Source of the DNA: a virus
Strand: one strand, 5' to 3'
DNA length: 64,000 bases
IMG/VR virus record: IMGVR_UViG_3300030102_005560
Location: 17,288 to 81,287 of that record
A program made the translations under genes and the position numbers. The notes beneath the pieces are model-generated. The model was given only the letters and a program-made list of their open reading frames with translations. It had not been told where the DNA came from and did not search any database. Positions 28,401 to 60,772 of this stretch are shown in pieces (position 1 is the stretch's first letter; the number at the start of each line of letters is the position of its first letter).

Positions 28401-28834
28401 ACTATTGCACCTCAGGTGGTAGATACGGTCTGTACACCTACAAGGTAGCCAGTGGTAGGACACCTGCTGCCAACACGCCAGCGTCCAGAGCGACACCAGA
28501 CGGCAACGGGCCATACATCCCAGTGTACGTAATGACACCCGGTAACAGCCTAGATGTTCCCACCAGCCAAGGTCCGAACATACCCGGAGTGGGTGTGACG
28601 GGCTTCGACAACACTAACCTAGAATCCACCGTATCACGTCTGGTCATTAGCGAGAACACGATACAACACCACCGCTCGGATGCGCCTAGGAGAAAGCAGG
28701 AGCAGGAGAGCGACGACAAACTGAGAAGGGTGGATTACGAGGTAAAGGCGAGGTTCAGCCAGTCCTTGCATGGCAAGGGTCATGACGGTGACGTCGCCTT
28801 CAGCGTTACTGAGCACAGCGGAGATGGTAGTTGA
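10403..28834 (+). CDS. Giant tail-associated protein, 6143 residues, LamG-like N-terminus
   Basis: A single uninterrupted frame from a GTG start (GAGGG 8 bp upstream) to a TGA overlapping the next ATG. Residues about 10-230 look like a LamG/pentraxin-type jelly roll: FFFDGVSDSIIVPDG, LTIEAWLMPDCGGTVVEKSG, LHVIATFREKGLELYVNGQ, SNSNIYIGGKGGQFRG. About 655-710 hold a module (SGQTYIIVSIGDTNFTTIGA, then SANTVGLIFEATGTGSGTGT) that I recognise as frequent in marine phage tail proteins. Three HxH clusters occur near residues 871, 1916 and 4077 (HSHVH, HHVH, HTHTH). Residues about 5284-5646 hold tandem repeats. Base composition is even except for an AT-rich patch at 24121-24300. Few Cys, no signal peptide. 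Position before the hub gene suggests a tail-tip, baseplate or side-fibre protein for host binding. The precise role is unknown. Confidence 0.7.
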   Translation: MSVLSRSNHAFFFDGVSDSIIVPDGPFILGKRDSLGNTSVKEFLDDDNADPQLSITSGLYSNELTIEAWLMPDCGGTVVEKSGQFKLTVGNVDTPGPATFGIYLNNGSSDEYHEISTGNKTATRYEGTVYPASEFGGIHESYNRFDTSTYGTATDLNRNHRQLLHVIATFREKGLELYVNGQIMASKSLKDVPRTIAKSNSNIYIGGKGGQFRGVMEAIHIKGGFKQGMTHGKSPLKDDTTMLLYRFEEPISPIEKEYAFTSITNDFNDAGLSTISISASDAQAIATLLTGKAADLSNFPNGNLDFTVTPYSSGKYTVVHPTSGNKYIPHVPYNLLINPNSIDRKTRKPNQTPPERVRLHSIDSMFGAATLTVSSVHLDHDRGVANDGLMGVLNKSRTTDSDDYFVIISADLLIDSGTGRPYQPPHFSTQIIDRTGQMVIDESNYERHGLVYSSRMATSTVDTDNPFAPVWYSSVPSEFQIGHSGRHVKNHVDGHPFLRMLPDANEEIVDLKGDGQADLIDIIYDQMQDGVEHQISVNSRVDVFRDLNDLPINSITNTTTVTQVVNTYQDTGSPPTGKRKLLAIGGPQMDFRPFALKGPVPLVGEEYASDIRKHHLRPSSQSRVALLHVPQLSTSNIKFAPYVEIHYNAMDLTGASMYKPVTAGSFVSGQTYIIVSIGDTNFTTIGASANTVGLIFEATGTGSGTGTARPYHPMLMVEKTVPASDVSIGAGSYVYDAIADSISSGKTLYAAGGVIDFDVGKLQTNSNMLQPHNLIGDNSEGYAADSDVDETSSPANYTPRESDSSENKTPSVILDSTSSGRSHESVFNKVRLSKPGHKHSLNDIGDYSRVEPQTVPGSPSTGEFDTGITTSHSHVHEVFDIIDNVPLVNDSISNMSLILQPSDRSRTNQLSRAKSLLDSFDTPSQFKIMCMMSRARVRSIKENDAADKGNYTVVHCVGLSESAASRNVDFVGTGSPDSHIVKEIEPNAPVVTVTLGGPGQGAMDTKPLYHKSKLAHESYSTRRAYAVEAVKLEMDFLSGTGTLHIRPLNNNSDDLASWGTYGFPRYGSIYMPDGSSAKYSSKTGTSFSFVASSLGSGDYLSSSGSEYTTIAQLLNAIGLMAGSTSGVVEIYGNFTIYSEPDFGDESNIENGTTVNDKMHQSLNDVQHDYQLGTQYASTRALVEIPLFANQFFKSTIGPDNGFKIHLDATHTAHTYNPSPVGRRPKGTSPADREAESAYSFAMANRQYVSSSTVKKWTDTRTVKRLYVSNISIFPDSSTSTDTYQGITNAFRYRKINLANGEYAYYTNVNTSNGYLDILNTEYGYSPEFFDSLEAGITVFLNESRLNKELPPMFSDSISQSSDFENRSEYYHDSASVKTQGGNVDYGLRQYVTAVEFKAGPESNPHAPRVGPRRATGKVLSELKTSLGNDEFALTLTLSPDEFSTFPNLGYDTLSEAPLEAGELIYEVQYDDSGTIHRYHYHGNLKTVGSLTTPENSITLTYTTTGGFTSYPVSILNKRITLSRKASRVLRETSAFGTGYTYYEGGTVYRELFNNMNIDTTIAIQQNDSSSNPESLIQLTMPSNRTLHDLHNISVKKDDEVYYYVDTTTDELRKIGTVTRVVSGEGSNNTTIHLSANAPTIPASAKLAVAMGDYEDKDAILNAHWLNPYAPGGLRNGDTIWANMSYNNPHAVEGLFAKSRGVYNESQVWTEFNGGTGSLNNSPRDSIPIENFMIGKTCLETARNYVQHVNRTIEENYLALGLTASQAPTVAFVDPYLSTPTHARVLLYDTAHDREFVAFQDIFMQVQTSPETTQLGWRKEVVEGSARKPLHKVNAQYAGSGPSPWTTQIDVTNGYPSQNPFIRSTQQSKFIESAYAHDLANRQSSDLLGSTVPTGSYTLPTDGRSSTSVRIYGKAHGHHVHTEYSLGGTLSNIRLGNSTVPRTNDSVVLHKVADELHFLGRKPAGTNVDVFTKELIKLREGTTGATFRDPSTFFDTPDGTRVIPAFLCLRGIRAESLDLTSHEEGRLQHLPEWKDMDFVRRLTVDMGVVKNKEGVVNITKAAEEVVRLINQHGALTARTENGSAHDPSPFWHVDDKNKGTHMGYLRAHIGREVRDLNGDIGVSVVIHSTVPGATGRNFCVWLDNSTGQDTYQPEFMIGHGGRWRNFWALPEETEGELMHPAPMPLNKHGRPFAPITTLQQYITSEESGEDVQSVADFEDDSVLRAVSDSISGKSHNSINAESLDVKGSSSTFVKGLRTGSRAMARINFGGLVASGVPGWAPNAGKWGFGKVNDSSFDNRYGESTSTSYGSYVPAADILPDNVGTSNIYGFRFKDNVGTEHGVRYIYRRDGDSFSNENTVLPTTIEEEVCVFFDDRDVAQGGFTIGNSMQGDNDATGRMDFTFVSETLGNKWKGARWRGVSAPNAATLVTASVSSTTMTIAFQAPFDTSFTDDKLGYLGFPRENGIIQITDEDGDGDADVGLTLSYGSRSGTQFFDVLGLPGSWTSGDYLITSVLNWTCLVTDELIAAATAAAINAGNEINNPDGLKFDCRDMYATDGRTFGEWGVREDAITIRAFNPSKNVAPLNESFSATLHRDFGIHAAHLEFGELKKTVRPTGAASWNFDTSRALTDAVIDGSRNVDCGYLPFNILKIDSVARGPHANTATPLFVDSKNNKASTKEWARGLKGLSFTRTSGDHILPKIDNPLTRYETAWTAISELVTDGEFSEGFTGAIAVDTGNPTNEIVVGDLIADNADRVLGRVTARTSTSITLDSLRVSIADNLIINKRQSLDNSTKNWQSSVTLSASMFHFAIPAGQVTGSIIKSLGERKRVYLSPSASVVAESKVGTSSDTVLQWDIDNSIGNMPREITFNRNLLSTHTNPDFDGLRSVGSVFSEPIVMFRGGRSSKDHSVPLFFGGGFSGVTLDVNDGTQNDYSSFYTHPYANGPTGVAGIQNANEISTSFAMLDANAMFAFFPGAALCNQHRGSITPPAFNKDNVLAPDLHSTTTLASDVVTAKPVPLVLRFPHPTARYEDHLDGTENKTTYLVFGPGQAFPFTREAADGTGLGHSSADTGNRFEPNPGLIVTATNNSTWASVPDSDGQSNLLFPNSIDNDNYAFGPLTKTRYNDTAGFHWRAMVNWETPAGYCMKGKFLQRPSHGRHYGQQFSDATPYNVIHLLPIHPKMHTPVIAYGIAMAADTVWHMDGGFHPGGHWMDNQITFNPPHPSASSRINGTSWPRADQIHPAAFRVSGAMLSKTLDYIGSSDTVTTNDSKMEYIVVDATRAQNGEELATVLGAAINAFPGGGALKALGGTHMPSMGNSLRQDRYGWVSVGTSSNGVQQATSVSPNQITNFITVDTGNPNQVTAEQVPASGWLRAHVGNAVSWACYHSREINASGDITFLLAPNRIEGKSEFEDKETWEDHANGSADDFAAVASNATIFVWSKAGTIRFNNENDSTRDHMTQVHFSGIADAIDRTKPIGAVGWHGERYSHLNSLKISVSTVKNGATSTTTGYAAGLGAYHPSLAFSPYGTAGTVMSVHSSVPVVAPMKHSPESVSPVDGIGTNVAEALTKSRFYVNFPDANGDGWSTGTLTPYFQDSDITTGSVTHWSSPTNYTTTLPEELTHPQGVYTSAFLVVSYECETALKNKYDRDLIQCNGDWLHLKTTSTNKIRSAGTSQFDPRIHNQDRFTAPANAGPNVEALIVSGTSVPTGDESVANWSDSVTWSFFTAFSDKTDKDNDLSMKNAIPGLNKTGDLLFDLDQSIGSALLQTGDAKRNVSSDKYTGTAYTASTGNSVSYPTEYWMGDVNAFQMYENSPVKNFTVENVVWKRMDGGNLSLPAINARGLGAVPWVTRVDTTGSSDVSYLTGEKVYGNVRFSFETTNSAMMPVLQAQELAHPEFIKKVPYSVGGVLEIPNEEVQFQSISVIDDSGQEHVLEGGSPLGTVIRGFRTPPDRGVNGKAPALANSGNTPNLKVMLPNPDSIPGNLIVRSGFDPIQAYQNETMGSGGMIHPDLSETHIGHLFDNSVAGPRNSPTYEDHNWERIDPVTFDSEVGGWNNNNPLKSSYELHDRTLFFHVTKMGHTHTHRYPTVYDYSSGSSGACSLQNQTVSVTAWNSTSSQLTVSQTLDSSVFSGGFGTKEVMDDRRFLRVYNPTTDEGAVCSYTTAGSTTITVVGDVGFADFMLAQTVTDLKVVPSYYVPAGSTRFFAARRMRDHAEVSGNSPDMAHTRYFAGDTVAYNAYSKPKMTPMPYPRMGHHFVTPTMPMLPGHWAHPAYQSLYRRHLVDFNASVSFKDTDLLNKYKTPTNSLSDIETAQSITFVDNINPLEAEVNFSGVNAAPSGPSDIHGGAFTLMFETGVKYDGYGILASSGTAGTMNSLGGHTIILEASANYTLEKHFPDPAEVGAYQIVIQPNVFSNQLIGYHNNATVGLTSQQVNTVVGIKRDSSRSTKIGGLGLILAKEVQADVRGCEVFINEMMLDVSPDYGSQFTNIPPLMSYNPLGVQLTESPSFTRRGFPYAVMFSDATPGYTLNIPWWSILHKNGPQGTDATNYRGLSQYGPDDYYLFSRSTFGSVGNQLTINGYTSTYIDIYSSIRENISINPKSTVVSFSSASGKIQISNSNTFPISPYYSQVVEYTGKNGNRYTKTLQSRSGALFDVNQGDYLQLQAGSDEFWTNLYDGAVVRLSYKYDTLPAGDIFTNEERSVFAHILPDIVDGNQDTNNAFLPDAYMCMWHPNLGRPNTYFSDSRTTLTSSAIDKDSYNSLPEHFETIHYHDFSHVISTGPFDFLIKTPKSTRTGEVTSGDSSHDAGGTNVMLSGFWPCGSRGGAHASRLDVYSYASSTWNLHATTDNCNFSSASNKEWTDADDDGSYSLSNGLAVGSMGGTRRRPYGYRNAVRQANNKPRYGVNPVRFQHEETANTEGNNTLDYDAGPLVQIETSDWGWSGNGTDDDTFPTTYVGVMERLTNFTGMLGHDQANVQVRYSDGRRMTRPFGTPVRTLRNPSGVERDWWGDSEGKGETSLSVASQYYLVDWWGNERGEDVRRAPVRGFGIRPAWDCGNAYEEDRTNTAGADNPSNTVTITSFNSLERDTASTAQITISGDITNYVSPANATASIAIANSNGLNTDVFPVGESAQIKFGLQPADSDNTDANNFIQLVSEDGAQTTKWFARTSGTNGAALSGNNGQFTYPSGARQYNIGASVVLTARNFKGAVETYSQGFAGSLSQPQQVVSDVLGADDTQNITLTAAPTGSAPNRVGATSATLTLGSSFASHNTNNPNTIAVVDFTGGINELILGETTGSNDNTINYFTITDSASNVKNYFPSHDSTNQPTGSTGTRTFDDGSTKSVVYFNFASNGNNGAAGLALVQAINGSSGHPNTISAQNNGSGSVGLTHDLAGTAGNGAALAKSNIADSVATISGSNFSGGVTEENATNTPFIQIIDNESSPTTKKYVPVKNGDALGNGNNGGGSIGDVTGGIAFQEGASAVATADNLRIAIGHSNGHDGTVLTDAAGSAAITLTQKTIGANTAAITLNNLASNISKTNFSGGGIRDNFLGLTDAAGTLKKYKASNTAANGSTDGTYVFYDAAAPSQNSTVAENLETAINSVNGHNGTLTTTRTNNAIEVRLNQATVGSAAVSDNVTGLTTDVSFTSVVHQPRTPYRRIWNDAKPIYNLKGIADLSSGNISVTAGNTIPRFGGVLNDTNNNDTSNLVDVFAPTHSLRVGDMGNGRGVRYPTAFNEDVVTELSSPTHTTGMVLSHNTAEPPFGNGLMRPRNDVLESDEVPRGISARLGISENGLLKPDAVVSDRVEEVVGSSVHKDAVSRTSPRIGIDADTVEGIEQHHVVINTEAHSLHTDRDIGQRVLLQGGSQVKTSSASTLTDVNYNALSFARQSSSGSVVSAAHKFSHTSTFRPYGGTYLIDSKSYSGLFDDTGWGVTSLTGSTDTSNPYQDPDNYSSDTVRNNEKDKSVEFLLRPIRVLDNSHVEVFRFHNSLSSGTPQYDANYYYCTSGGRYGLYTYKVASGRTPAANTPASRATPDGNGPYIPVYVMTPGNSLDVPTSQGPNIPGVGVTGFDNTNLESTVSRLVISENTIQHHRSDAPRRKQEQESDDKLRRVDYEVKARFSQSLHGKGHDGDVAFSVTEHSGDGS
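24121..24300 (+). other. AT-rich patch inside the giant gene
   Basis: By hand count 55 of 180 bases are G or C, whereas neighbouring stretches exceed half (40 of 60 at 24841-24900). Frame is kept and the encoded sequence is Ser/Thr/Ile/Asn-rich (NGYTSTYIDIYSSIRENIS). The edges are fairly sharp, near 24110 and 24330. Looks like a recently acquired or recombined segment. Confidence 0.75.
26252..27340 (+). repeat. Three tandem protein repeats (about 100-140 residues each) in the giant protein
   Basis: Units at about 26252-26665, 26666-27034 and 27035-27340 share the plan: T/IDxxxxxKxY, an acidic turn, a helix with AI followed by a Gly-His (INGSSGH, IGHSNGH, INSVNGH), a strand, then NFSGG closing the first two units. 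A more diverged unit may precede them (about 25770-26250, ending VVDFTGG). Repeats are clear in protein and weak in DNA, so they are old. Confidence 0.65.
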
Positions 28835-43577: not shown

Positions 43578-44969
43578 TCATGCGTCGTCTCTCAGCCTCA
43601 GGAACACAACCTTGCCGTCCTTGCCTTGGTCGAACATGCTGCTTGCCCACTTGTTGAAGTGGTTATAGGCTGTTCCCCTAGTAACCTGATTCTGATTCAT
43701 GTATGTGGACATTATGTCAGAACGCTTTCTCCAATTGTCACCTCGACCACCTAGGTCGAATGGGTTGCAAGCATCGTGAGCGGCCAGCCACCTTGCTTTC
43801 TGGTTTGCCTTCTCTGCAATCTTTGCACCAATCTCAACCTCTCCTTCAAGCCACTCTATGAGGTTGTTGAACAGGTCATACAGAATCTCCTTTGCCATGT
43901 CCACGTGTTCGTCGGTCACGACCCAAGTGTCCTCCATCAGAGCGATGTGTGTGGATAGGATGACTGTGTAGTTCTCCATTGCCGGTATGAATGATGCTAC
44001 GACCTCACCTATGCCCGGTCCTAGACCAGTGAGCAAGTCGTAGTAGTCCTCTATGGCAGTGTACATAGCGGGGTAGAACGAATCATTCGCGCTTAGCATG
44101 TCACCCATGGCATCTTGGAGCAACTCCTCCTGTTCTGGTCTGGACATGTTGTCCCACTCGACGAACTTCGTCTCAGTGACTTCCAGTACCCTGTTCCTCA
44201 TTCTCTTCTCTAGGTCTTTGAAATAGTCGGTGATTTCTTCGTAACTGACTTCCATCTTTGGTATCTTCTTGAAAGCAGATTCGGACCTCTTCATACTGAC
44301 ATTCATCCTCCTACCCATGCTCCAATTGGACCAGTACAGTAGAACCCTCTGGAAGATACCCTTGGTGAGCACGTATTCCTTGACGCCTGATGGAGGGTAT
44401 GTGGTAATCCACAGTGATACTAGAGATTCAGTCTCTATCCTACCTGCTTTGGTGTGCTTGACGAGGATGTTGTTGTTGCTTCCGACCGGGTTGCATGCTG
44501 ATTGTAAGTAGAGCACTGTCTCCTGACTGTGCTTGTTGGGGTTGAGTATGATTGAGCCTTCATCGAAGTTGAGAGCCTTGCGTCCGTTCAGGAACCCCTC
44601 CTTCTCAACGACCTCTACGTTGCCATCAGCGTCCTTGGTCTCCTCGAAGCCACCAATCAAACCTGCATCGGTCCCTGTGGTGTACAGGTCAGTTGGTATA
44701 TCTATGTCCTTCAGTATGTCACCAATGAACTCCCAAGCGATTGACTTGCCAGTCCTGCTCGATTGAATCCAGAAGGCATGAACCCTAGGGTCAAGGTGAG
44801 ATGCGCCCCAAGGTATTCTGACATATGGTACCGCTAGTTGTCCTTGTATGAAAAAGAAGGATAACATACCGGGTATGTCGTTGTCTATCGATGTATTACC
44901 GAAGTGTTCTAGGTACCCTCTGAAAATAGGGTTCTTCTTTACTATTGCATATTGCTCTACTTGCTTCAT
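43578..44969 (-). CDS. P-loop ATPase, putative replicative helicase (DUF3987-like)
   Basis: 463 residues. The Walker A motif is degenerate (QSSRTGKS at 69-76, first Gly replaced); Walker B is KALNFDEGSII at 131-141 (D136, E137). Then follows TESLVSLWITTYPP and GIFQRVLLYWSNW, a layout like that of DUF3987-type primase-helicase ATPases. The last 80 residues (KRSDIMSTYMNQNQVTRGTAYNHFNKW) form a likely winged helix. No MCM is present in the window, so this may be the replicative helicase. The gene has its own promoter (TATA at 44992-45003) with a palindrome between TATA and ATG. ATPase is sure; helicase is inference. Confidence 0.6.
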   Translation of the reverse strand: MKQVEQYAIVKKNPIFRGYLEHFGNTSIDNDIPGMLSFFFIQGQLAVPYVRIPWGASHLDPRVHAFWIQSSRTGKSIAWEFIGDILKDIDIPTDLYTTGTDAGLIGGFEETKDADGNVEVVEKEGFLNGRKALNFDEGSIILNPNKHSQETVLYLQSACNPVGSNNNILVKHTKAGRIETESLVSLWITTYPPSGVKEYVLTKGIFQRVLLYWSNWSMGRRMNVSMKRSESAFKKIPKMEVSYEEITDYFKDLEKRMRNRVLEVTETKFVEWDNMSRPEQEELLQDAMGDMLSANDSFYPAMYTAIEDYYDLLTGLGPGIGEVVASFIPAMENYTVILSTHIALMEDTWVVTDEHVDMAKEILYDLFNNLIEWLEGEVEIGAKIAEKANQKARWLAAHDACNPFDLGGRGDNWRKRSDIMSTYMNQNQVTRGTAYNHFNKWASSMFDQGKDGKVVFLRLRDDA

Positions 44970-44971
44970 AC

Positions 44972-44991
44972 CTGACCTGATTACTGGTCAG
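44972..44991. promoter_or_regulatory. Operator-like inverted repeat
   Basis: CTGACC-8 nt-GGTCAG, a perfect 6-bp inverted repeat ending 2 bp before the ATG of the helicase-like gene and touching its TATA box. A protein bound here would cover the transcription start. Candidate repressor site. Confidence 0.45.
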
Positions 44992-45003
44992 TATATTATA
45001 ATT
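44992..45003 (-). promoter_or_regulatory. TATA box of the helicase-like gene
   Basis: AATTATAATATA on the coding strand, centred about 28 bp before ATG 44969, in a locally AT-rich 50-bp gap after the XPF-like gene. Spacing fits an archaeal promoter with a very short leader. Confidence 0.5.
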
Positions 45004-45019
45004 CCTGTTATTCTAATAT

Positions 45020-45721
45020 CTATTCTATACGTTTGAACCTGCTTGCCTCTACGTGAACTGGGTTCTCGCTGGTCAAGACCTCGATGACCTTCTTCCTGCC
45101 CTTCTCGCCTAGTCCCTTCACCATCTTCAACGACTCGGGGTAGCACATCTCCTCTATTGACCCGCATTCCTTGAGAAGCCTGTCTGCCATTTGACTACCG
45201 ATACCCGGCACGGTCAGTAGCATGTCCTTCCTGACGTCATTGGTGCTGACTCTCCTGATTGCCTTGGCACCGTGCGCGGATGCGGGCTTGTGCAGTTTGT
45301 TGTGCAGTTTGACTATGAAGAGCGCTGCCTCGCTCAGGTTGGGCGTGAAGAACACCTGACAGTCGAAGTCGGACATTATCCTCGCAATCGTGCCTATCAG
45401 TTCGTTCTGCACTCTCGTGTAAGTGAGTTTCTTGCCGTTGTTCTTGCTCATGGCGATGTACTTGTCTATGCCGCCATGTATCAGGAGGAAGAAGCGCTCG
45501 TAGTTAGCGTCCATGTTGTCCAGTTGCCTCCAGAGGTGACCGCTGTGACTGGACTGGAACAAGTCGCTGATGGACTTGGCCTCGATGCAAGCATTACCCA
45601 GCAAGTAGTCACCAACGACTAGGGTCCTCTTGCCCACTCTGAGACCGACTGACTCTGCCTTCCTTATCACCGAGTCATGCAGTGGTCCTCTCTCGTTGCT
45701 ATCTATCACTAAATCAGCCAT
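45020..45721 (-). CDS. XPF/ERCC4-type structure-specific nuclease
   Basis: 233 residues from ATG 45721 (GGAG 10 bp upstream; a GTG at 45730 is in frame). The N-terminal nuclease domain shows LVIDSNERGP at 4-13, GDYLL at 37-41 and IEAKSISDL at 46-54, the ERKxxxD motif in which Arg is Ala (A48). A helix-hairpin-helix domain follows (LTVPGIGSQMADRLLKECGS, then MVKGLGEKGRKKVIEVL). Architecture equals the C-terminal nuclease half of archaeal XPF/Hef without the helicase. Likely cuts forks, flaps or junctions in replication and recombination. Because Arg48 is replaced, activity is not certain, though Glu, Lys and Asp stay. Confidence 0.75.
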   Translation of the reverse strand: MADLVIDSNERGPLHDSVIRKAESVGLRVGKRTLVVGDYLLGNACIEAKSISDLFQSSHSGHLWRQLDNMDANYERFFLLIHGGIDKYIAMSKNNGKKLTYTRVQNELIGTIARIMSDFDCQVFFTPNLSEAALFIVKLHNKLHKPASAHGAKAIRRVSTNDVRKDMLLTVPGIGSQMADRLLKECGSIEEMCYPESLKMVKGLGEKGRKKVIEVLTSENPVHVEASRFKRIE

Positions 45722-54365: not shown

Positions 54366-54525
54366 ATTTCCACCTCTTCTCATCTCTTCCATTGATTTCA
54401 TCAACGGATTTTCTCAAGTTATCCACTACCATGGTCAGGTTGGCAATCTCCACCTCGACCCCAGCAAGTCCTCTTTGTATTGTGAGGCCCAATTCTTCAA
54501 TGTCTATGCTTCTTAATTCACTCAT
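54355..54525 (-). CDS. 56-residue coiled-coil protein
   Basis: A small gene filling the gap between RFC and the ssDNA-binding candidate. Its ATG overlaps the RFC stop (ATGA) and its end overlaps the next gene by 11 bp. The protein is helical with hydrophobic heptads (IDIEELGLTIQRGLAGVEVE, IANLTMVVDNLRKSVDEI) and a basic end (RDEKRWKYDR). Precise coupling at both ends and normal codon use support it. Function unknown; perhaps a subunit helper for replication proteins. Confidence 0.6.
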   Translation of the reverse strand: MSELRSIDIEELGLTIQRGLAGVEVEIANLTMVVDNLRKSVDEINGRDEKRWKYDR

Positions 54526-55469
54526 ATTCTTTCACTTTCCTTTTTCATTTTCGCCACCATATAGTCTAGGTAGGAATAGTCATCGCCGCTCCACGTATGC
54601 TTGTGTACCAGCACATCGCCATACACAGCCATCATGGGCCAGAGAACAGGGTACACCTCGTCATCGAAGTGTTTCCTCATGTTCCTGTAGAACCCGCTCA
54701 GCACATTGTGGAGTGGTGCACCAGAGTCGAGCAGTGCATGAAGGTTCCGTCTGAGTTTGTGCCACTCGTCTTTCACAATCAACTCAGCATTGTCATCAGA
54801 GGCCATTGCCTCTAGGAGTTCAATCCTCTCTTGGAGAGTGTCTATGGCCATCCCGTCGAGGAACATGACGCATGCGCGTATGTCCCCGTTCATCGCTCTG
54901 GTGAGTCTCCTCAGGAGTTCATCCAGTTTGAACCAGTACGCATGCCACTCCCTTCCCAGTATCGCACTCAGACGGTTGGCACCTGCGCTCTCTGACACGG
55001 GCTTGAAGGCATAGGTCTTGCATCTGGAGCGTATCGCAGGTCTGACCTTCTCCAAGTCGTTGCACGTGAGAATCAGCATGGCGTTCTTGGAGTACTTCTC
55101 TATGATTTGCCTCATGGCGTCCTGTGCTGTAGGTGTGAGACCATCAGCCTCATCCAGAAGGACGACCTTCCTCTCTGCTCCTATTGACTTGGCCCTCATG
55201 GCGAACTTGAGTTCGCTCCTGATGAAGTCAATGCCCCTGTCGTCACTCGCATTCGTCTCTATGAAGTTCATCTCGTTGAAGTGCTCACCCAGCATCGTCC
55301 TCGCTATCACTGTAGCAGCACTGGTCTTGCCTATCCCCGGTGGGCCATGAAACAACAACGCTTGGGGATATGACCCCTCGTTCTCCCAACCCTCGACGTC
55401 CTCGACCAGTTTATCCAGTCCGACTAGGTCATTGAGGGTCTGGGGTATCGCTCTCTCAATCAGTCTCAT
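54522..55469 (-). CDS. Clamp loader, RFC small subunit
   Basis: 315 residues from ATG 55469; a GTG at 55475 is in frame but the promoter spacing favours the ATG. AAA+ motifs: Walker A GPPGIGKT (42-49), Walker B LLDEAD (104-109), sensor 1 TCND (135-138), SRC (148-150), and the lid and C-terminal helices. No large subunit is seen in the window, so the loader may be built of this subunit alone or borrow the host's large one. It loads the sliding clamp for PolB. Preceded by an archaeal promoter (55483-55500). Confidence 0.88.
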   Translation of the reverse strand: MRLIERAIPQTLNDLVGLDKLVEDVEGWENEGSYPQALLFHGPPGIGKTSAATVIARTMLGEHFNEMNFIETNASDDRGIDFIRSELKFAMRAKSIGAERKVVLLDEADGLTPTAQDAMRQIIEKYSKNAMLILTCNDLEKVRPAIRSRCKTYAFKPVSESAGANRLSAILGREWHAYWFKLDELLRRLTRAMNGDIRACVMFLDGMAIDTLQERIELLEAMASDDNAELIVKDEWHKLRRNLHALLDSGAPLHNVLSGFYRNMRKHFDDEVYPVLWPMMAVYGDVLVHKHTWSGDDYSYLDYMVAKMKKESERI

Positions 55470-55482
55470 ACGCACTGAACGG

Positions 55483-55500
55483 CTATTCCCTTTTATAGTC
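55483..55500 (-). promoter_or_regulatory. Shared TATA promoter element, copy 1 (RFC operon)
   Basis: GACTATAAAAGGGAATAG on the coding strand, identical over 18 bp to the copy at 60755-60772. The TATA centre lies about 25 bp before ATG 55469, so the transcript would begin at or close to the start codon. Confidence 0.7.
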
Positions 55501-55918
55501 AGAGAGATTTCTCCACTTCTTCGTGCATCTCATCGTACTTCGGAGCCCACTCTACGAACTTCTCCCAGTTGGCTGGAGGCGGGTTGTCGTACAACCACCT
55601 CATCACCCTCAGTCCCTTGGTGTCAGATGGCGTGTAGCCGTATACTGACTCTATCTTCTCGAAGAGCATGAGGAACTGCTCGACGTCATCCACCCGGTGG
55701 TATGACTTCTGCATCCTTATCCCGTAGTTCCCTAGGAACGACTCCACGCATTCCTTCTGGTCATCAGTGCCGGAGGAGAACAGGGACCTCCATCTTATCC
55801 TCCTCTGGAGCCTGACGCTGGACGTGCTGTCCCCTCTGTTCTCGAACCATGAACTGAATCGCACTTCAGTCAGCGCTATCCCCAGTCCCACTGCGTCCCT
55901 ATCCACTGCCACCACCAA
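55499..55918 (-). CDS. Hypothetical protein
   Basis: 139 residues if the TTG at 55918 is used; GTG codons at 55915, 55912 and 55906 are alternatives and the start is uncertain. It overlaps the ligase-like gene end by 20 bp. Features: VRLQRRIRWRSLFSSG, a helix (QFLMLFEKIESVYGY) and an acidic end (WAPKYDEMHEEVEKSL). No family recognised. Its stop borders promoter copy 1. Confidence 0.45.
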   Translation of the reverse strand: MVVAVDRDAVGLGIALTEVRFSSWFENRGDSTSSVRLQRRIRWRSLFSSGTDDQKECVESFLGNYGIRMQKSYHRVDDVEQFLMLFEKIESVYGYTPSDTKGLRVMRWLYDNPPPANWEKFVEWAPKYDEMHEEVEKSL

Positions 55919-57200
55919 TCAAGTCAACGTACTGCGTGACGTCCTCTATACCCATGCCGTCCCTCAATGACATGTAGGAGGGGTTGGTAAGCATATTGGT
56001 CTCCCTGTCGATGAATGGCGAGGAGACCGAGATGACGACGCAGTGCTCTATGGGCACCTCGTTCCAATCAGCCTCGGCCTTGCCCCTGTCAGGCATCAGC
56101 CTGTCTAGGTGGAACGTGATGCTGGTCTGCTCGTTCGGCTCGTAGACCGGGCAGATGCATGCATCGATGTAGTCGTCGTAACCATCCATGGCCTGCAATC
56201 GTATGCTCATCGAGCCATCCTTCTCCTGCTTGTACGCATCCAACCTGAGATTGTGTATGTGATGGTCCCTGACTAGCATGTACCCACCCTCCTCAGTTGG
56301 GTTGTAAGGTGATACGTTGGGGAACCTGACGCTGTGATTCTCATCCGTTCTCATCAGCGCGTGCCAAGAGGGGATGGGGACGGGCCACGCTATCTCGGCG
56401 TCGTTGCTGTCGTGGTACATGGCGAGCCTATCCTGAAGGCTCAGTTCCGGATGCTCTGGGAAGATGGCATCGACCACCGTCCCGTTCTTCGTCCTCTCTA
56501 TGATGACCTCCCCCTCCATCACGACCTCCGTCATCCCGCTCAATGGTATCTCTTGGTACAGGGCACCGTTGTACTCATCCAGCCCGGTGACCCTCTGCTT
56601 GCTCCAAGAGTAGAGGGGCCTCTTCCTCAACGCCACCCTAGGGCTATGGTACCACTCCTTGGGATTGAATAGGCTGTCGACGGCATTGAACATGGACTCG
56701 ATGACCTCCTCGTCTGAAAGGTATGCTCTGCTCCCTCTGACCACATCGGCCTTGATGCCCAGTTGCGAACCTAGGAGAGTTAGAAATCCACCCCTTGTAA
56801 TTATTGCTCTGTCTCTTATTAAAGTGGACCAGAACAACCTCGCTTCTGGCTCGCTCAACTGCTTGGACGTGGGTATGAAGGTGAAGTCCTTCAGTATGGC
56901 TTGTCTTAGACGCAAGACTTCATCCAGTGAGTATTGCGACTGCTGTGTCTCGCTGCTCTCGGAAGCCAGCAGTTGGGAGACCGAACCAGTCACCAGTTCC
57001 CTCAGTATCTCGATTGGCGTCTCCAACTCGGTTGCCACCTTGAGCAGTGCCATCGTCTCCGTCATCGTGTCCTGATTGTCTGGGAACAGGATGGTGTATG
57101 CTGACAATGCATCCTCCATCTGGAACTCCAGCCTGTGCAGGGCACGCTTGTCACCAAGTCTCCTGCTCTCCCAAGCGATGGCCAACTCGCTGAATTGCAT
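55899..57200 (-). CDS. Hypothetical protein, possibly a degenerate ATP-dependent DNA ligase
   Basis: 433 residues from ATG 57200. The start MQFSELAIAWE and the helical region to about 150 (LSEPEARLFWSTLIRDRAII) recall the DNA-binding domain of archaeal ATP-dependent ligases, and the ending NMLTNPSYMSLRDGMGIEDV recalls the last ligase segment with RxxRDDK. However, no KxDG motif I is found where expected, so either it is inactive, or it is another family. The region YIDACICPVYEPNEQTSITF could be an OB-type fold. The gene is the first of this cluster facing the divergent promoter region at 57230-57272. Treat the ligase link as weak. Confidence 0.4.
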   Translation of the reverse strand: MQFSELAIAWESRRLGDKRALHRLEFQMEDALSAYTILFPDNQDTMTETMALLKVATELETPIEILRELVTGSVSQLLASESSETQQSQYSLDEVLRLRQAILKDFTFIPTSKQLSEPEARLFWSTLIRDRAIITRGGFLTLLGSQLGIKADVVRGSRAYLSDEEVIESMFNAVDSLFNPKEWYHSPRVALRKRPLYSWSKQRVTGLDEYNGALYQEIPLSGMTEVVMEGEVIIERTKNGTVVDAIFPEHPELSLQDRLAMYHDSNDAEIAWPVPIPSWHALMRTDENHSVRFPNVSPYNPTEEGGYMLVRDHHIHNLRLDAYKQEKDGSMSIRLQAMDGYDDYIDACICPVYEPNEQTSITFHLDRLMPDRGKAEADWNEVPIEHCVVISVSSPFIDRETNMLTNPSYMSLRDGMGIEDVTQYVDLIGGGSG

Positions 57201-57229
57201 CACTTATGGGGTCAGGTATCTTGCATTAA

Positions 57230-57272
57230 GGGCTTTTGCCCGCGCTAGAAAGTGCTAAGAGATTTATAGCGC
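57230..57272. promoter_or_regulatory. Divergent promoter and operator-like region
   Basis: The 82-bp gap between the - strand ligase-like gene and the + strand gene at 57283 holds a small hairpin (GGGC-tttt-GCCC, 57230-57241), the inverted repeat GCGCTA-19 nt-TAGCGC (57242-57247 and 57267-57272) and a TATA-like TTTATA at 57263-57268. The TATA lies about 17 bp before the + ATG, somewhat close for the usual archaeal spacing. Confidence 0.45.
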
Positions 57273-57282
57273 TCCGGCTATC

Positions 57283-58038
57283 ATGAGCGAAGCGTTTGAG
57301 AAAGCGTGGTTTGTTCTCAAGTTCCAACCTTCCCAAGGGTATAGAATAGGAGAAGGTCGAAATCAAGTGGTCTACGGCATGGAAGGAGACCCTAACGTAA
57401 CTAAGGTCGGCGGTGCCTTCAACCTAGGAGACATGTATCTGAACGAGTTGCTGAAACCGATAGGGCCGCTCGCTGGACAGGTAGTGATACCAACGACGGA
57501 GGAGTTACCAGTAGAGGCTCAGTCACGCTTCATAGGACGCAGCCCTATACTGTCCCAGCAGATAAGAGGAGACCCTTTCCCTGATACTAAATCCCACAAG
57601 GAACACATGGCAGACAGTTTTGCTAACATGGCAATGGCATACGACCAACCGGAGTACGGAGCGTTACTGGAGGCGCTAGGCTTGGCTGATTTGAAAAGAC
57701 CCAACTTCATGAGGGTGGCTGGTTACGAGAAGCCGCTCATCCACGACCCGATGTTCTATGGCCCCGAGAATCCCGCTAACCAGCACTCGGATGAATATCG
57801 CACTGCCTTCTTGGCGAGAGGAACCCCACGAAGACTGGGTATAGATTACACAGTTCCTGATGTGTTGATGGAGTCACTAGCACGTAGAGTGGATGAGTTG
57901 CCCTACGACGAATACGTTCAACCAGCATTGGAATCCGAGGTACCTATGAGCGCCATCGAGGAGGAGCAACTCAACCAGATGATTGATGAGCAGGGGAAGG
58001 ATGTCAAGTCTAATCTTGGGAAGATTGGCGTGTTTTGA
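57283..58038 (+). CDS. Orphan + strand gene, N-terminus with kinase-like Gly-rich loop
   Basis: 251 residues, the only + strand gene within the replication half. Residues 21-43 read RIGEGRNQVVYGMEGDPN and then VTKVG: a GxGxxxxVY loop followed by Lys 41, as in the N-lobe of protein-kinase-like folds, but the later HRD and DFG motifs are not found, so a true kinase is unlikely. The rest is mixed and ends acidic. I recall similar N-termini in other marine viral contigs but cannot name the family. It has its own promoter region with an inverted repeat, and its 3' end overlaps the convergent gene by 29 bp. It could be an early or regulatory protein. Confidence 0.6.
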   Translation: MSEAFEKAWFVLKFQPSQGYRIGEGRNQVVYGMEGDPNVTKVGGAFNLGDMYLNELLKPIGPLAGQVVIPTTEELPVEAQSRFIGRSPILSQQIRGDPFPDTKSHKEHMADSFANMAMAYDQPEYGALLEALGLADLKRPNFMRVAGYEKPLIHDPMFYGPENPANQHSDEYRTAFLARGTPRRLGIDYTVPDVLMESLARRVDELPYDEYVQPALESEVPMSAIEEEQLNQMIDEQGKDVKSNLGKIGVF

Positions 58039-58336
58039 AAGCGGTTACCCAAGACCCCTCTCTTGGATAGGCATCGGCGATTAAGTGACTGATGCCCGGC
58101 TTGCCCTTGTCCTTCGGGAAAGTACCACAGTGCTCTACCTCATTCTCATGTCTCGGCTTGGTGTCCTTGTTCAGGTTCCTTTGAACAACCAGCCACATGT
58201 ACTCGGCAATGCGCTCTTTGAACACTTCCTCATCATCACCGAATATGCGCATGACCGCATCGGTTGCTCCTAGGAATCCCTCCAGATTATTAGTCCAATG
58301 TGGGTTCTCCACGTCAAATATGTCTTCCAATTTCAT
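58010..58336 (-). CDS. Hypothetical protein
   Basis: 108 residues from ATG 58336, which overlaps the upstream stop (ATGA) and has GAGGG 6 bp before it; ATG 58342 is too close to that site. Helical N-terminus (FLGATDAVMRIFGDDEEVFKERIAEYMW), then a charged region with one Cys and His. Its stop lies inside the 3' end of the convergent + strand gene. No family recognised. Confidence 0.5.
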   Translation of the reverse strand: MKLEDIFDVENPHWTNNLEGFLGATDAVMRIFGDDEEVFKERIAEYMWLVVQRNLNKDTKPRHENEVEHCGTFPKDKGKPGISHLIADAYPREGSWVTAFKTRQSSQD

Positions 58337-58950
58337 GAGCATCCCTCGCAGTACTTCCTTAGTTTACCCTTGCCGTGCTGCTCGAAGACCTTCTGGCAAG
58401 TGGCACACTTGTACTCCCTGACCACAGGCACGTACTTCTTCCTCTCGAAGTCCCTCGACTGCTGTCGCCTTCGCTCTTTGTAGCAAGTGGGGCACACCTT
58501 GCGCACCCTGCCTCTGCCCTTCTTGACGCCAAGGCTACATCCGCACATCTCGCAGTTGCCCTGCTCCCTCTCCACAGGAACCCTGTTCTTCTGCCTGTAC
58601 TTCTTGTAGGCCTCCTTCCTTCGCTCCTCCCTGCACACACCGCAGAACAGCCTCTTGCCTCCTCTGCCTGTCTGGGTAATCATTCTGTCACATGTCTTGC
58701 ACTTGTGCTCCCTGACAATCTTCTCCTTGGGCTTCTTCTTCTGCCTCTTGTTCTCTGCCCTGCACTGGTCCGAGCACATCTGCGGGTTCTTGCCCCTCTT
58801 CGACTCGAACGTGAAGGGGGACTCGCAGACTATGCATGTGCCTATGAGCATCTTAGGTGGCTCAGGCTCCGGCTCAGGCTCTGGCTCCTTGCGCACGGCC
58901 TTGCCTAGGAAGCCAGCCACTAGGTCATCCTCAGAAATCCCCGACGGCAT
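58333..58950 (-). CDS. Protein with four tandem zinc ribbons
   Basis: 205 residues with four CxxC...CxxC (or CxxxC) units: C39/C42/C59/C63, C84/C87/C103/C106, C133/C136/C153/C156, C182/C185/C201/C204, a period of about 45-50 residues. Linkers are strongly basic (KRQKKKPKEK, RRKEAYKKYRQKN, RRRQQSRDFERKK). Before the first unit is a Pro-Glu repeat (residues 22-31), coded by a hexamer-repeat tract. This design, a string of zinc fingers with basic linkers, suggests nucleic acid binding, perhaps transcription control of early or late genes. GGAGG lies before the ATG. The order of units is clear; the family is not known to me. Confidence 0.72.
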   Translation of the reverse strand: MPSGISEDDLVAGFLGKAVRKEPEPEPEPEPPKMLIGTCIVCESPFTFESKRGKNPQMCSDQCRAENKRQKKKPKEKIVREHKCKTCDRMITQTGRGGKRLFCGVCREERRKEAYKKYRQKNRVPVEREQGNCEMCGCSLGVKKGRGRVRKVCPTCYKERRRQQSRDFERKKYVPVVREYKCATCQKVFEQHGKGKLRKYCEGCS

Positions 58951-59521
58951 GCTTGACCTCCTCTTCCTGTTTCAACTTGGTGAAGTCCATCTTGGTCGTC
59001 CCTGCTCCCTCTATGGCGAAGGACGTGCAAGTGTCACCTGCTCTCACCGTCCATGTCTCACCTAGGATGTCACCCAGAGCCGCTGTGATAGCAGCAGCGT
59101 ACTTGTCATCACCTGCTGCCCACTTGGTCTCATCAGCCATCTCCTCAGCGATGTCCTGTATCGCCTTCTTCACGACGATGCTGTACTCATCGTCTGGTGC
59201 ATCCTTGGGCACGAAGTTCCTGATTGCTATCTTGAGCAACCTGCTCAGGACCTTCTTGGTCGGTAGTTTCGCAGCGACTCTCTGCCTGACCTGCTTGCAC
59301 CGCCTGTACCCACGTCCGTTCGTCTTTCCTGTTTCCTTGACCTCGGTGCCTATCGTCAACGAAGACCCTGTCTTCATGTCAATCACTAGCAATTCCGGGT
59401 CGGCATAGTAGTCCTCATCAGGGTCATGCATGTCCTTCTCTATCTTAGACAGCATCATCCCTGCTTTCTTCAGTGCCGTTCCGCTTCCGTCGGTCCAATC
59501 CATTTCTTCTACATTCATCAT
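58931..59521 (-). CDS. Hypothetical protein at a promoter-headed operon start
   Basis: 196 residues, ATG 59521 (a second ATG follows at 59518) preceded by promoter copy 2. N-terminal acidic helix (ALKKAGMMLSKIEKDMHDPDED), then a beta-hairpin-like piece (LLVIDMKTGSSLTIGTEVKE), a basic region (RGYRRCKQVRQRVAAKLPTKK), a long helical part and a small beta end (WTVRAGDTCTSFAIEGAGTT). The 3' end overlaps the zinc-ribbon array gene by 20 bp. No family recognised. Confidence 0.5.
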   Translation of the reverse strand: MMNVEEMDWTDGSGTALKKAGMMLSKIEKDMHDPDEDYYADPELLVIDMKTGSSLTIGTEVKETGKTNGRGYRRCKQVRQRVAAKLPTKKVLSRLLKIAIRNFVPKDAPDDEYSIVVKKAIQDIAEEMADETKWAAGDDKYAAAITAALGDILGETWTVRAGDTCTSFAIEGAGTTKMDFTKLKQEEEVKHAVGDF

Positions 59522-59532
59522 TCTCTCTCCTT

Positions 59533-59550
59533 CTATTCCTTTTTATAGTC
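59533..59550 (-). promoter_or_regulatory. Shared TATA promoter element, copy 2
   Basis: GACTATAAAAAGGAATAG, one mismatch to copies 1 and 3. With copy 3 it shares a longer 31-bp block including AAGGAGAGA. TATA centre is about 23-26 bp before the two possible ATG codons of the gene at 58931-59521. Confidence 0.7.
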
Positions 59551-59794
59551 AAGACTGCCTGAAGTCAATCAGGTACAGCCCTGCCTCCTCTTCCTCACTA
59601 TCATCATGCTCACGCACGTTGACTTTCTCATTCACTTTCACTTTCACTTTCAGCAGCGTGTTCCTCCTGTACTGCTCCTGCCACATCACCTTGATGCAGT
59701 CCTCACACAGCCTGCCGTTCTTGGCAGCCTTCGCGCTCGGCTCTGTGTACTCAGCACCACACAGGGTCTCGTCTAGTATTCGGAAGTGAATCAT
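59549..59794 (-). CDS. Small zinc-binding-like protein
   Basis: 81 residues; ATG overlaps the upstream stop (ATGA), with GAGGTGA before it. C12 plus CEDC at 30-33 could bind metal; then a charged Lys/Val repeat (LLKVKVKVNEKVNV) and acidic patch (DDSEEEE). Its last bases meet promoter copy 2. No family recognised. Confidence 0.5.
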   Translation of the reverse strand: MIHFRILDETLCGAEYTEPSAKAAKNGRLCEDCIKVMWQEQYRRNTLLKVKVKVNEKVNVREHDDSEEEEAGLYLIDFRQS

Positions 59795-59958
59795 TCCTCT
59801 TCACCTCCGAGGTCTTTGCTTGTCGGAAAAATCAACCTGCTCAAGGGTTGTATTCCCATTTCTTCCAACTTCCTCCGCCACTCTTCCACATCGCTTGAGT
59901 TTCCTGTTCGGCTCTCTTGTATCCAAAAGAAATCTATTCGTGGGTCTGGGTCAGTCAT
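59791..59958 (-). CDS. 55-residue hypothetical protein
   Basis: Fills exactly the gap between two genes: its ATG overlaps the upstream stop (ATGA) and its stop overlaps the next ATG (ATGA). This double coupling is strong support. Sequence: MTDPDPRIDFFWIQESRTGN, a helix (DVEEWRRKLEEMGI) and a short tail. No family recognised. Confidence 0.6.
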   Translation of the reverse strand: MTDPDPRIDFFWIQESRTGNSSDVEEWRRKLEEMGIQPLSRLIFPTSKDLGGEEE

Positions 59959-60263
59959 TGTCCCTTCTCCTCCTTCTTCTCTCGCACTATCCCTCCGGGT
60001 GCGACTTCCTCGTACTCCATATCGTCCCAGTATATGAGCCAGTCATTTACGCTGAGATACCACTCGTGTAATTTCTTTATCATGTCTATGAACTGAGCAT
60101 TGCTTATCGTGGCTGAACCTAACACACCATCTTCACGTTGTAGTGTGAATTTTATTGGGTCCATGGGGCCTCTTTCGTTTGAATTAAACACATTACCAAT
60201 GCTACATATCTCAAACTTACTATGTAGGTGCGAGTCCTCCTTTTCCATCCATGGCTCGCTCAT
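59955..60263 (-). CDS. Hypothetical protein
   Basis: 102 residues, coupled to its neighbours at both ends (TAATG and ATGA). Contains KFTLQREDGVLGSATISNAQ, the helix FIDMIKKLHEWYLSVNDWL and an acidic/basic end (VREKKEEKGQ). No membrane span or Cys cluster. No family recognised. Confidence 0.5.
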   Translation of the reverse strand: MSEPWMEKEDSHLHSKFEICSIGNVFNSNERGPMDPIKFTLQREDGVLGSATISNAQFIDMIKKLHEWYLSVNDWLIYWDDMEYEEVAPGGIVREKKEEKGQ

Positions 60264-60508
60264 TATATCTTCTCCTTGTACTCGGTGTGGCTCTTAGGCA
60301 ACTTGTGCCTGCGTCTCCCCATCATGTTCTCTATCAGTCCAAGGACATTCGCACCAGCCTTGGTGAACCTGTCCTTCGACACATTGTCATCACACATCCG
60401 AGACTTCAACCTGCTGAGGTCTATCTCGGTGACTATGTGATTGAGTATCTCGTACTCAACGTGTGTCACGCTCGCTGCTCTCTCTTCTTTGCTTCCTCTC
60501 TTCTTCAT
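60263..60508 (-). CDS. Small basic hypothetical protein
   Basis: 81 residues starting 53 bp inside the PC4-like gene; AGGAGA lies 8 bp before the ATG, which supports this overlapping start. Basic and helical (MKKRGSKEERAASVTHVEYE, LSRLKSRM, MMGRRRHKLPKS); a winged-helix-like DNA-binding fold is possible but unproven. Confidence 0.5.
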   Translation of the reverse strand: MKKRGSKEERAASVTHVEYEILNHIVTEIDLSRLKSRMCDDNVSKDRFTKAGANVLGLIENMMGRRRHKLPKSHTEYKEKI

Positions 60509-60740
60509 CTTTCATTTCTCCTATCAGTTGTTGAAGTGCCTCTTGCAGTTCCACTGCCTGCTCTATGGTCAAGCGCACTCCGTGCTTGGTCCATGTGCCG
60601 GGGACCTTGGACTGGTTCAACAGCCTCAGGTCTATCCACAATTGCTTGTAGTACTCTATCCCCCTCAGGAACACCATGCCCTTGCCGTCCCTCCACTTGT
60701 GCTCCAAGCAGGGGGAGCGCCACGCTATTATGTCGTCCAT
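60456..60740 (-). CDS. PC4-like ssDNA-binding/transcription coactivator candidate
   Basis: 94 residues from ATG 60740 with AAGGAGAG 6 bp upstream and promoter copy 3 before it. The stretch YKQLWIDLRLLNQSKVPGTW followed by TKHGVRLTIEQAVELQEALQ has the order of the PC4/Sub1 domain: strand with IDIR, a Gly-Lys-Gly-like turn, IxLTxEQW and a final helix. PC4 domains bind ssDNA and occur in some phages and archaea. The ending is charged (GEMKDEEERKQRRESSERD). The similarity is remote and needs a profile search. Confidence 0.42.
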   Translation of the reverse strand: MDDIIAWRSPCLEHKWRDGKGMVFLRGIEYYKQLWIDLRLLNQSKVPGTWTKHGVRLTIEQAVELQEALQQLIGEMKDEEERKQRRESSERDTR

Positions 60741-60754
60741 CAATATCTCTCCTT

Positions 60755-60772
60755 CTATTCCCTTTTATAGTC
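60755..60772 (-). promoter_or_regulatory. Shared TATA promoter element, copy 3
   Basis: GACTATAAAAGGGAATAG, identical to copy 1. It is centred about 26 bp before ATG 60740 of the PC4-like gene and starts just downstream of the small zinc-ribbon gene's stop. Confidence 0.7.

Follow-up and report, generated by a model that had tools for sequence, protein, structure and literature searches.

A putative repeated core promoter in a magrovirus-type virus, with lineage-specific bases downstream of the TATA box

The stretch of 64,000 nucleotides analyzed here (the window) comprises bases 17288-81287 of the 81,287-base virus record IMGVR_UViG_3300030102_005560 and harbours three copies of a short element, GACTATAAAARGGAATAG, each located on the minus strand and each facing a minus-strand gene. 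The three sites probably represent a single viral core promoter, repeated ahead of replication-side transcription units of a magrovirus, with host TBP and TFB acting on the TATA box and a lineage-specific factor acting on the bases downstream of it. The minus strand of the record encodes PolB, a group II chaperonin, an ERCC4 nuclease and RFC, and the plus strand encodes the major head protein; the structural genes lie opposite the promoter copies. On the basis of this gene content we take the record to be of magrovirus type, i.e. a virus of Marine Group II archaea.

Three copies of one element in the window

A first-pass annotation of this DNA had reported an 18-bp sequence that is identical at two sites and has one mismatch at a third, and a stretch of 31 bp shared by two of the sites. 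The same three positions were recovered (Table 1), as was the longer stretch, TCTTGACTATAAAARGGAATAGAAGGAGAGA, which copies 2 and 3 have in common over 31 bases with one mismatch. The minus-strand orientation of the three copies was absent from that annotation. No further match to the 18-mer was found in the window at up to 3 mismatches, and the rest of the 81-kb record contains no additional copy. In 100 dinucleotide shuffles the number of matches averaged 0.01 and never reached three.

Archaeal transcription starts approximately 26 bp from the TATA box centre, and first genes of transcription units are often leaderless. In the window, the first T of TATAAAAG lies 28 nt from the A of the RFC start codon (ATG at 55469). 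The corresponding distance is 29 nt for the PC4-like protein (ATG at 60740) and 29 nt for the second ATG (59518) of the 196-residue protein; comparison with relatives suggests that the latter protein starts at this second ATG and counts 195 residues. The window copies thus have a TATA-like box with the ATG 28-29 nt from its first T, as expected of a start about 26 bp downstream of the box centre, and the spacing of 23-26 bp to the start codon given by the first-pass annotation agrees when measured from the TATA box centre. Since the distances match archaeal TATA-to-start spacing, the ATG may itself be the transcription start. In the archaeal virus HF2 the TATA box was measured to begin at -26 (PMC8707807).

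Close relatives of the window

Twenty contigs, gathered via PolB and RFC relatives, were read. Most records are fragments, and as several contigs are near-duplicates (G011/G023/G024/G010 and G015/G021/G022) the number of independent lineages is about ten rather than twenty. Start codons are uncertain except for conserved proteins. An exact scan of viral contigs with CTATAAAARGGAATAG returned 37 stretches, nearly all with single matches as expected by chance; single-copy viral matches, among the matches listed, were treated as such. Two records have several copies. One is a 27-kb contig (G007; PolB 92% identical) with 4 copies, three of which are at the same genes as in the window, and the other is a 91.6-kb contig (G009; PolB 94%) with 7 copies in a region absent from the window's record. 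Several near-identical copies thus stand ahead of replication or putative early genes in the window's clade (3, 4 and 7), and up to 12 elsewhere.

A further relative, G001 (PolB 89%), has zero copies of the window's form. It has TATTTAAACGAATAG twice, ahead of RFC and of the 196-residue gene. Both copies have changed alike compared to the window, and the neighbouring sequence of the second copy (AAGGAGAGAGAAC) is unchanged. At the PC4-like gene of G001 approximately 40 bp including the promoter are missing and both flanks are intact: the promoter can evidently be acquired or lost in cassette fashion. The orthologue of the copy 2 site is present in G007, and in altered form in G001, G003 and L299/L300.

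Conserved place and spacing

The first-pass annotation had named lack of conservation in relatives as a finding that would speak against its proposal. In all 12 contigs of a first set in which the RFC start was read, the element was found ahead of this gene; the offset of the ATG is 28 in ten of them and 29 and 30 in the others (offsets refer to the first T of the TATA box). It is also present there in L299 and L300, bringing the total to 14 of 14 contigs at a fixed, leaderless-type spacing, so that the proposal withstands this test. At the 196-residue gene the element lies at 28-29 in the window, G007, G001, G003, L299 and L300. In other lineages it is also found ahead of proteins of ~463, 104, 98, 800 and 62 residues. 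Place is therefore conserved among relatives at RFC and, in several lineages, at further genes, with loss at the PC4-like gene in G001.

Copies number 1-12 per contig. All of them are on the PolB strand and none is on the structural-gene strand, which makes an early or middle promoter class, as judged from gene layout, plausible.

Each lineage has its own form

In an assumption-free count of repeated 12-mers, pieces of the promoter ranked top in most contigs of sufficient size. Other repeated 12-mers (GTAGTGCCTATT, GGTGGCATACCC and others) resemble repeats within coding regions and were set aside. Written from the first T, the form of the window (G000), G007 and G009 is TATAAAAGGGAATAG, and the forms of G003, G002 and G005 are TATATAAATAAATTAAGTA, TATATAAATTAACTCAGTA and TATATAAACAAGGAATGAA, respectively. 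Repeated copies, near-exact ones included, were counted for instance for TACTTAAACAAAGAATGAA in G014 (12 copies), TATATAAACCGAGATTGAA in G011 (11 copies; the form also of G023, G024 and G010) and TATTTAAACGAAGATAGTA in G015 (9 copies; the form also of G021 and G022). Furthermore, G016 and G025 have TATATAAACTGGRATAG and variants of it, G018 has TATATAAACAGAGGTTGG/CAAGGTATGG, and L299 and L300 have TATATAAAGCARCA. With the form of G001 included and the similar forms of G002 and G003 counted as one, ten versions result. In a cross-scan, the own form was the best match of each contig and only similar forms matched partially. The forms mostly have TTGAC or a close variant just ahead. A stop codon closing an open frame of at least 40 codons is overlapped by 27 of 76 copies (in many by the TGA of TTGAC), compared to 4.6% for random positions in the same stretches.

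The bases beyond the TATA box

Outside about -5 to +18 the copies are near chance likeness (0.27 upstream, 0.33-0.42 downstream); these figures come from copies found by similarity, in which within-virus identity is inflated by the selection of copies. As copies found in this way are biased towards likeness, the test was repeated with promoters drawn from orthologous genes, a TATA-like string being the sole criterion. Identity at offsets 9-18 was 0.869 between different genes of one virus (78 pairs) and 0.472 for the same gene in different viruses (125 pairs). With virus labels shuffled within genes, none of 10,000 permutations matched the observed value. Drift from a shared ancestor would make orthologues more alike than paralogous sites, the opposite of what was observed. 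The bases after the TATA box are most simply explained by selection exerted by a reader that differs from lineage to lineage, and the idea of the first-pass annotation that these bases are perhaps read by a viral or host factor fits such a lineage-specific constraint.

From these patterns we infer promoter activity, leaderless transcripts, a trans-acting factor and early or middle timing. The TATA box and the bases ahead of it would be contacted by TBP and TFB of the host, and RNA polymerase would start ~28-29 nt after the first T, at the ATG of the RFC, 196-residue and PC4-like proteins, with leaderless messages as the result that the spacing predicts. A lineage-specific factor would read offsets 9-14 in the window and 9-18 in lineages with a longer form (about -19 to -10 from the start), and would switch the promoter set on together and in time. 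A change of this factor would make all copies in a genome change along.

A candidate reader protein

TBP was not found in 16 magrovirus records, and TFB was not found above cut-off in the same records. One weak TFIIB match in G002 (Pfam TFIIB, 15 bits in one member) led to a protein of 94-116 residues that is encoded directly before the 433-residue protein preceding RFC. It is present in every lineage in which that spot was read, except in G000 (the window), G001 and G007, and a profile search detected no TFIIB-like homologue in the window's clade. The AlphaFold2 model of the protein (pLDDT 92) has five helices. Its nearest folds in the PDB belong to cyclin C/T/K and TFIIB (TM ~0.55-0.68 over the query, but E 0.2 or worse), and Brf1/TFIIB is the top match in a viral structure library. 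The protein has one domain and no cysteine ribbon, and the zinc ribbon plus two cyclin repeats of TFB were not encountered in it. In total 16 loci of this putatively cyclin-fold, TFIIB-like family were found (L285-L300; e.g. G011 82195-82476), all in magrovirus-type contigs. Identity at offsets 15-18 is 0.25-0.5 in the clade without the TFIIB-like protein versus 0.65-1.0 in the others, a difference that amounts to one evolutionary event.

This viral protein is a speculative candidate for the reader, a lead rather than an identification. The first cyclin repeat of TFIIB touches DNA directly downstream of the TATA box. It might be imagined that the viral TFIIB-like protein, with its one repeat and its gene shortly ahead of that of the clamp loader, associates with host TBP, recognizes the bases that follow the TATA box and co-evolves with all promoters of its genome, the window's clade having lost it and its shorter element being read by another factor; we consider this elaboration unlikely as a whole. 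If true, such a reduced TFIIB-like reader would offer, in minimal and natural form, a test of how TFB recognizes DNA beside the TATA box.

Alternative explanations

One observation weighs against a common promoter with leaderless messages that is read by a lineage-specific factor. Several copies in G009, G011, G014 and G016 are 33-47 nt or more from the ATG with purine-rich stretches resembling Shine-Dalgarno (SD) sequences, from which it follows that not every message is leaderless. The same arrangement of sequences could arise if a viral repressor has operators that overlie host promoters, in the manner of phage immunity (the stoperators of L5) or of the Aca8-type regulation of early rudivirus genes, with repressor specificities that differ by lineage. 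A protein bound directly behind the TATA box would block assembly, invariance within and divergence between genomes is the pattern of immunity operators, and virus-specific sequences around a common archaeal-virus core promoter, with virus-specific regulators inferred, have been described (PMC11065993). However, the copies are without exception located at promoters, share one orientation and keep a constant distance to the TATA box, and no repressor turned up, a general search for DNA-binding domains not having been made. Dyad symmetry is not kept across the forms either. A palindromic operator was rejected: symmetry is confined to the window's form (CTAT-N8-ATAG) and a close variant, one G001 copy (CTATT-N6-AATAG), and the forms of G003, G005, G011, G014, G015 and G016 have no symmetry. 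Repressor control is rather doubtful; it too invokes a reader specific to each lineage, with just the sign of the effect reversed, so that its probability is partly shared with the promoter reading preferred here. 

The downstream bases might also have no reader at all, if a plain strong TBP/TFB promoter is copied as a short cassette by duplication or gene conversion. The 31 bp common to copies 2 and 3, the ~36 bp common to their counterparts in G007, the clean insertion or deletion of ~40 bp at the PC4-like gene relative to G001 and the SD region shared by some G015 copies are all what such copying predicts. Nevertheless, the likeness between the RFC copy and the remaining copies in the same genome extends for just ~20-24 bp, with random flanks, and since the RFC promoter is at the same place in all lineages it must have been converted in place, not inserted anew. 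Conversion tracts so short and so complete in ten lineages are hard to obtain without selection, and copying without a reader is judged improbable.

A dependence on the host, in which the TBP/TFB set of each host favours an extended core promoter of its own and the virus follows suit, seems more improbable still. The core TATA does vary (TATAAAA, TATTTAAA, TACTTAAA, TATATAAA) and the hosts of the lineages probably differ, but cellular archaeal promoters generally conserve the B recognition element (BRE) and the TATA box, not ten fixed bases after it. Moreover, the 18-mer is not enriched in any of 84,980 cellular genomes. It has 11 matches there, one per stretch, in unrelated bacteria and one Sulfolobales bin, where ~15 are expected for random bases, and no cellular genome among the 84,980 uses it as a repeated promoter. 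A copy of a host promoter was rejected because these scattered matches are at chance level. Least of all do we expect a translation or RNA signal comparable to the start-associated sequences of cluster K mycobacteriophages; such a signal is highly improbable here. The copies are near starts and several continue into AAGGAG-like stretches. Against this, a canonical TATA box is kept and the ATG of RFC and the 196-residue protein lies at 28-30 nt in nearly all lineages, which places the element upstream of the putative transcription start, and the RFC copies of most lineages have no SD sequence.

Genes behind the copies and neighbouring features

The labels that the first-pass annotation gave to two of the genes fared differently. 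That of RFC stands (PDB E about 1e-40), and that of the PC4-like protein is weak, scoring 13 bits in Pfam where the cut-off is 25 (E = 0.074) and gaining no support in a PDB search. The 196-residue protein has no family match in Pfam or PHROG, and its structure model is poor (pLDDT 40). Upstream of RFC, the operon of the 433-residue protein has no repeated promoter in the window, while it has one in other lineages. In the window, this gene (minus strand) and a divergent gene at 57283-58038 (plus strand) seemingly use one TATA-like stretch, GCTATAAATC, within 57200-57283. The structural half of the window contains a 6143-residue open reading frame (10403-28834, plus strand).

Table 1 Positions of the promoter copies, the genes associated with them and the hairpin leaders of the 463-residue gene (positions without a contig name are those of the window)
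Feature	Position	Strand	Remarks
Copy 1, GACTATAAAAGGGAATAG	55483..55500	-	exact match; TATA box 55490-55497; downstream element GAATAG 55483-55488
Copy 2, GACTATAAAAAGGAATAG	59533..59550	-	one mismatch (A for G)
Copy 3, GACTATAAAAGGGAATAG	60755..60772	-	exact match; 31 bp in common with copy 2
RFC small subunit (clamp loader), first gene behind copy 1	54522..55469	-	PDB phmmer E 1.4e-40 to archaeal RFC small subunit; Pfam AAA
195/196-residue protein behind copy 2	58931..59518	-	relatives at 94, 80 and ~53-56% identity
PC4-like small protein (94 residues, weak label) behind copy 3	60456..60740	-	Pfam PC4 E = 0.074
433-residue protein upstream of RFC	55899..57200	-	conserved in all lineages
Hairpin leader	L138:14900-15006
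Hairpin leader	L143:11535-11637
Hairpin leader	L140:18161-18260
Hairpin leader	L145:5890-5992	-
Hairpin leader	L127:4316-4416
Hairpin leader	L124:12580-12684

In distant lineages the 463-residue gene lies 120-126 nt behind the shared promoter. A hairpin is conserved in the leader of this gene, with z values of roughly -2 to -4 in five of the six cases and a GUAUAGA arm that has a compensated change in G005 (Table 1), possibly a leader RNA or a replication origin; Rfam gave zero matches in the window or L138. In the window, the 463-residue gene (43578-44969) is preceded at 44970-45020 (minus strand) by TATAATATA and then by an inverted repeat, TGACC..GGTCA, directly before the ATG. This site is kept in G001, G006, G007 and G009, is present in an altered form in G002 and G003, and looks like an operator at a leaderless start.

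An ArdC-like anti-restriction protein with ArdC N-terminal and zincin domains (Pfam E 2e-17 and 4e-26) has the promoter in several lineages (G009:C1:84377, L014; G011 60639; G014 41572). This suggests that defence-blocking genes are in the same promoter class.

Comparison with known systems and significance

The promoters of phages T7, T3 and SP6 consist of ~20 bases that are near-invariant per genome, lineage-specific and changing with their reader, a single-subunit phage RNA polymerase. The magrovirus element is likewise near-invariant within a genome and lineage-specific between genomes; unlike T7-type promoters, it keeps a TATA box for host TBP/TFB. The stoperators of L5-like phages are short, asymmetric, near-invariant repeats of bacterial viruses and occur at sites other than promoters as well. 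In cluster K mycobacteriophages, the start-associated sequences are located immediately upstream of gene starts, are not TATA promoters and have extended repeats that are subcluster-specific (PMC3203893). The element resembles both in being a short asymmetric repeat, nearly invariant, near gene starts or operons.

Among archaeal viruses, the class I repeats of HF2 are experimentally proven promoters among early/middle genes, for which virus-encoded readers were suggested (PMC8707807). HF2 (Haloferacalesvirus) is likewise a tailed archaeal virus, and its intergenic repeats, which consist of TATA plus extra motifs and keep their place in relatives, lie between early/middle replication genes on one arm. 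The HF2 repeats are 56-58 bp long, with three motifs reaching over the start site, and are nearly constant across the genus, whereas the magrovirus unit is about 20-24 bp, ends before the putative start and has ten lineage-specific forms; the two are compared by layout, not by sequence kinship. In SIRV2 and other archaeal viruses, the early genes of a given virus have a regulatory sequence in common, the flanks of which vary from virus to virus (PMC11065993). The SIRV2 Aca8 motif shares with the magrovirus element a near-identical TATA/BRE core in each virus and virus-specific flanks, for which different regulators were inferred. However, the SIRV2 type marks small, mostly single anti-defence genes near genome ends, in unrelated hosts and viruses, whereas the magrovirus promoter stands ahead of core replication genes (RFC, the 463-residue protein). 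The magrovirus case resembles those of HF2 and SIRV2 in the way it works, and differs from them in its short unit ending before the predicted start, in its position ahead of core replication genes and in its clear lineage-by-lineage replacement. A literature search retrieved no paper on magroviruses together with promoters.

Viruses of Marine Group II archaea are abundant and uncultured. A lineage-specific repeated promoter would provide a handle on genes that are switched together, on transcript starts and on the pairing of promoter and reader across lineages. Furthermore, the promoter signature can assign magrovirus contigs to lineages from a few hundred bases.

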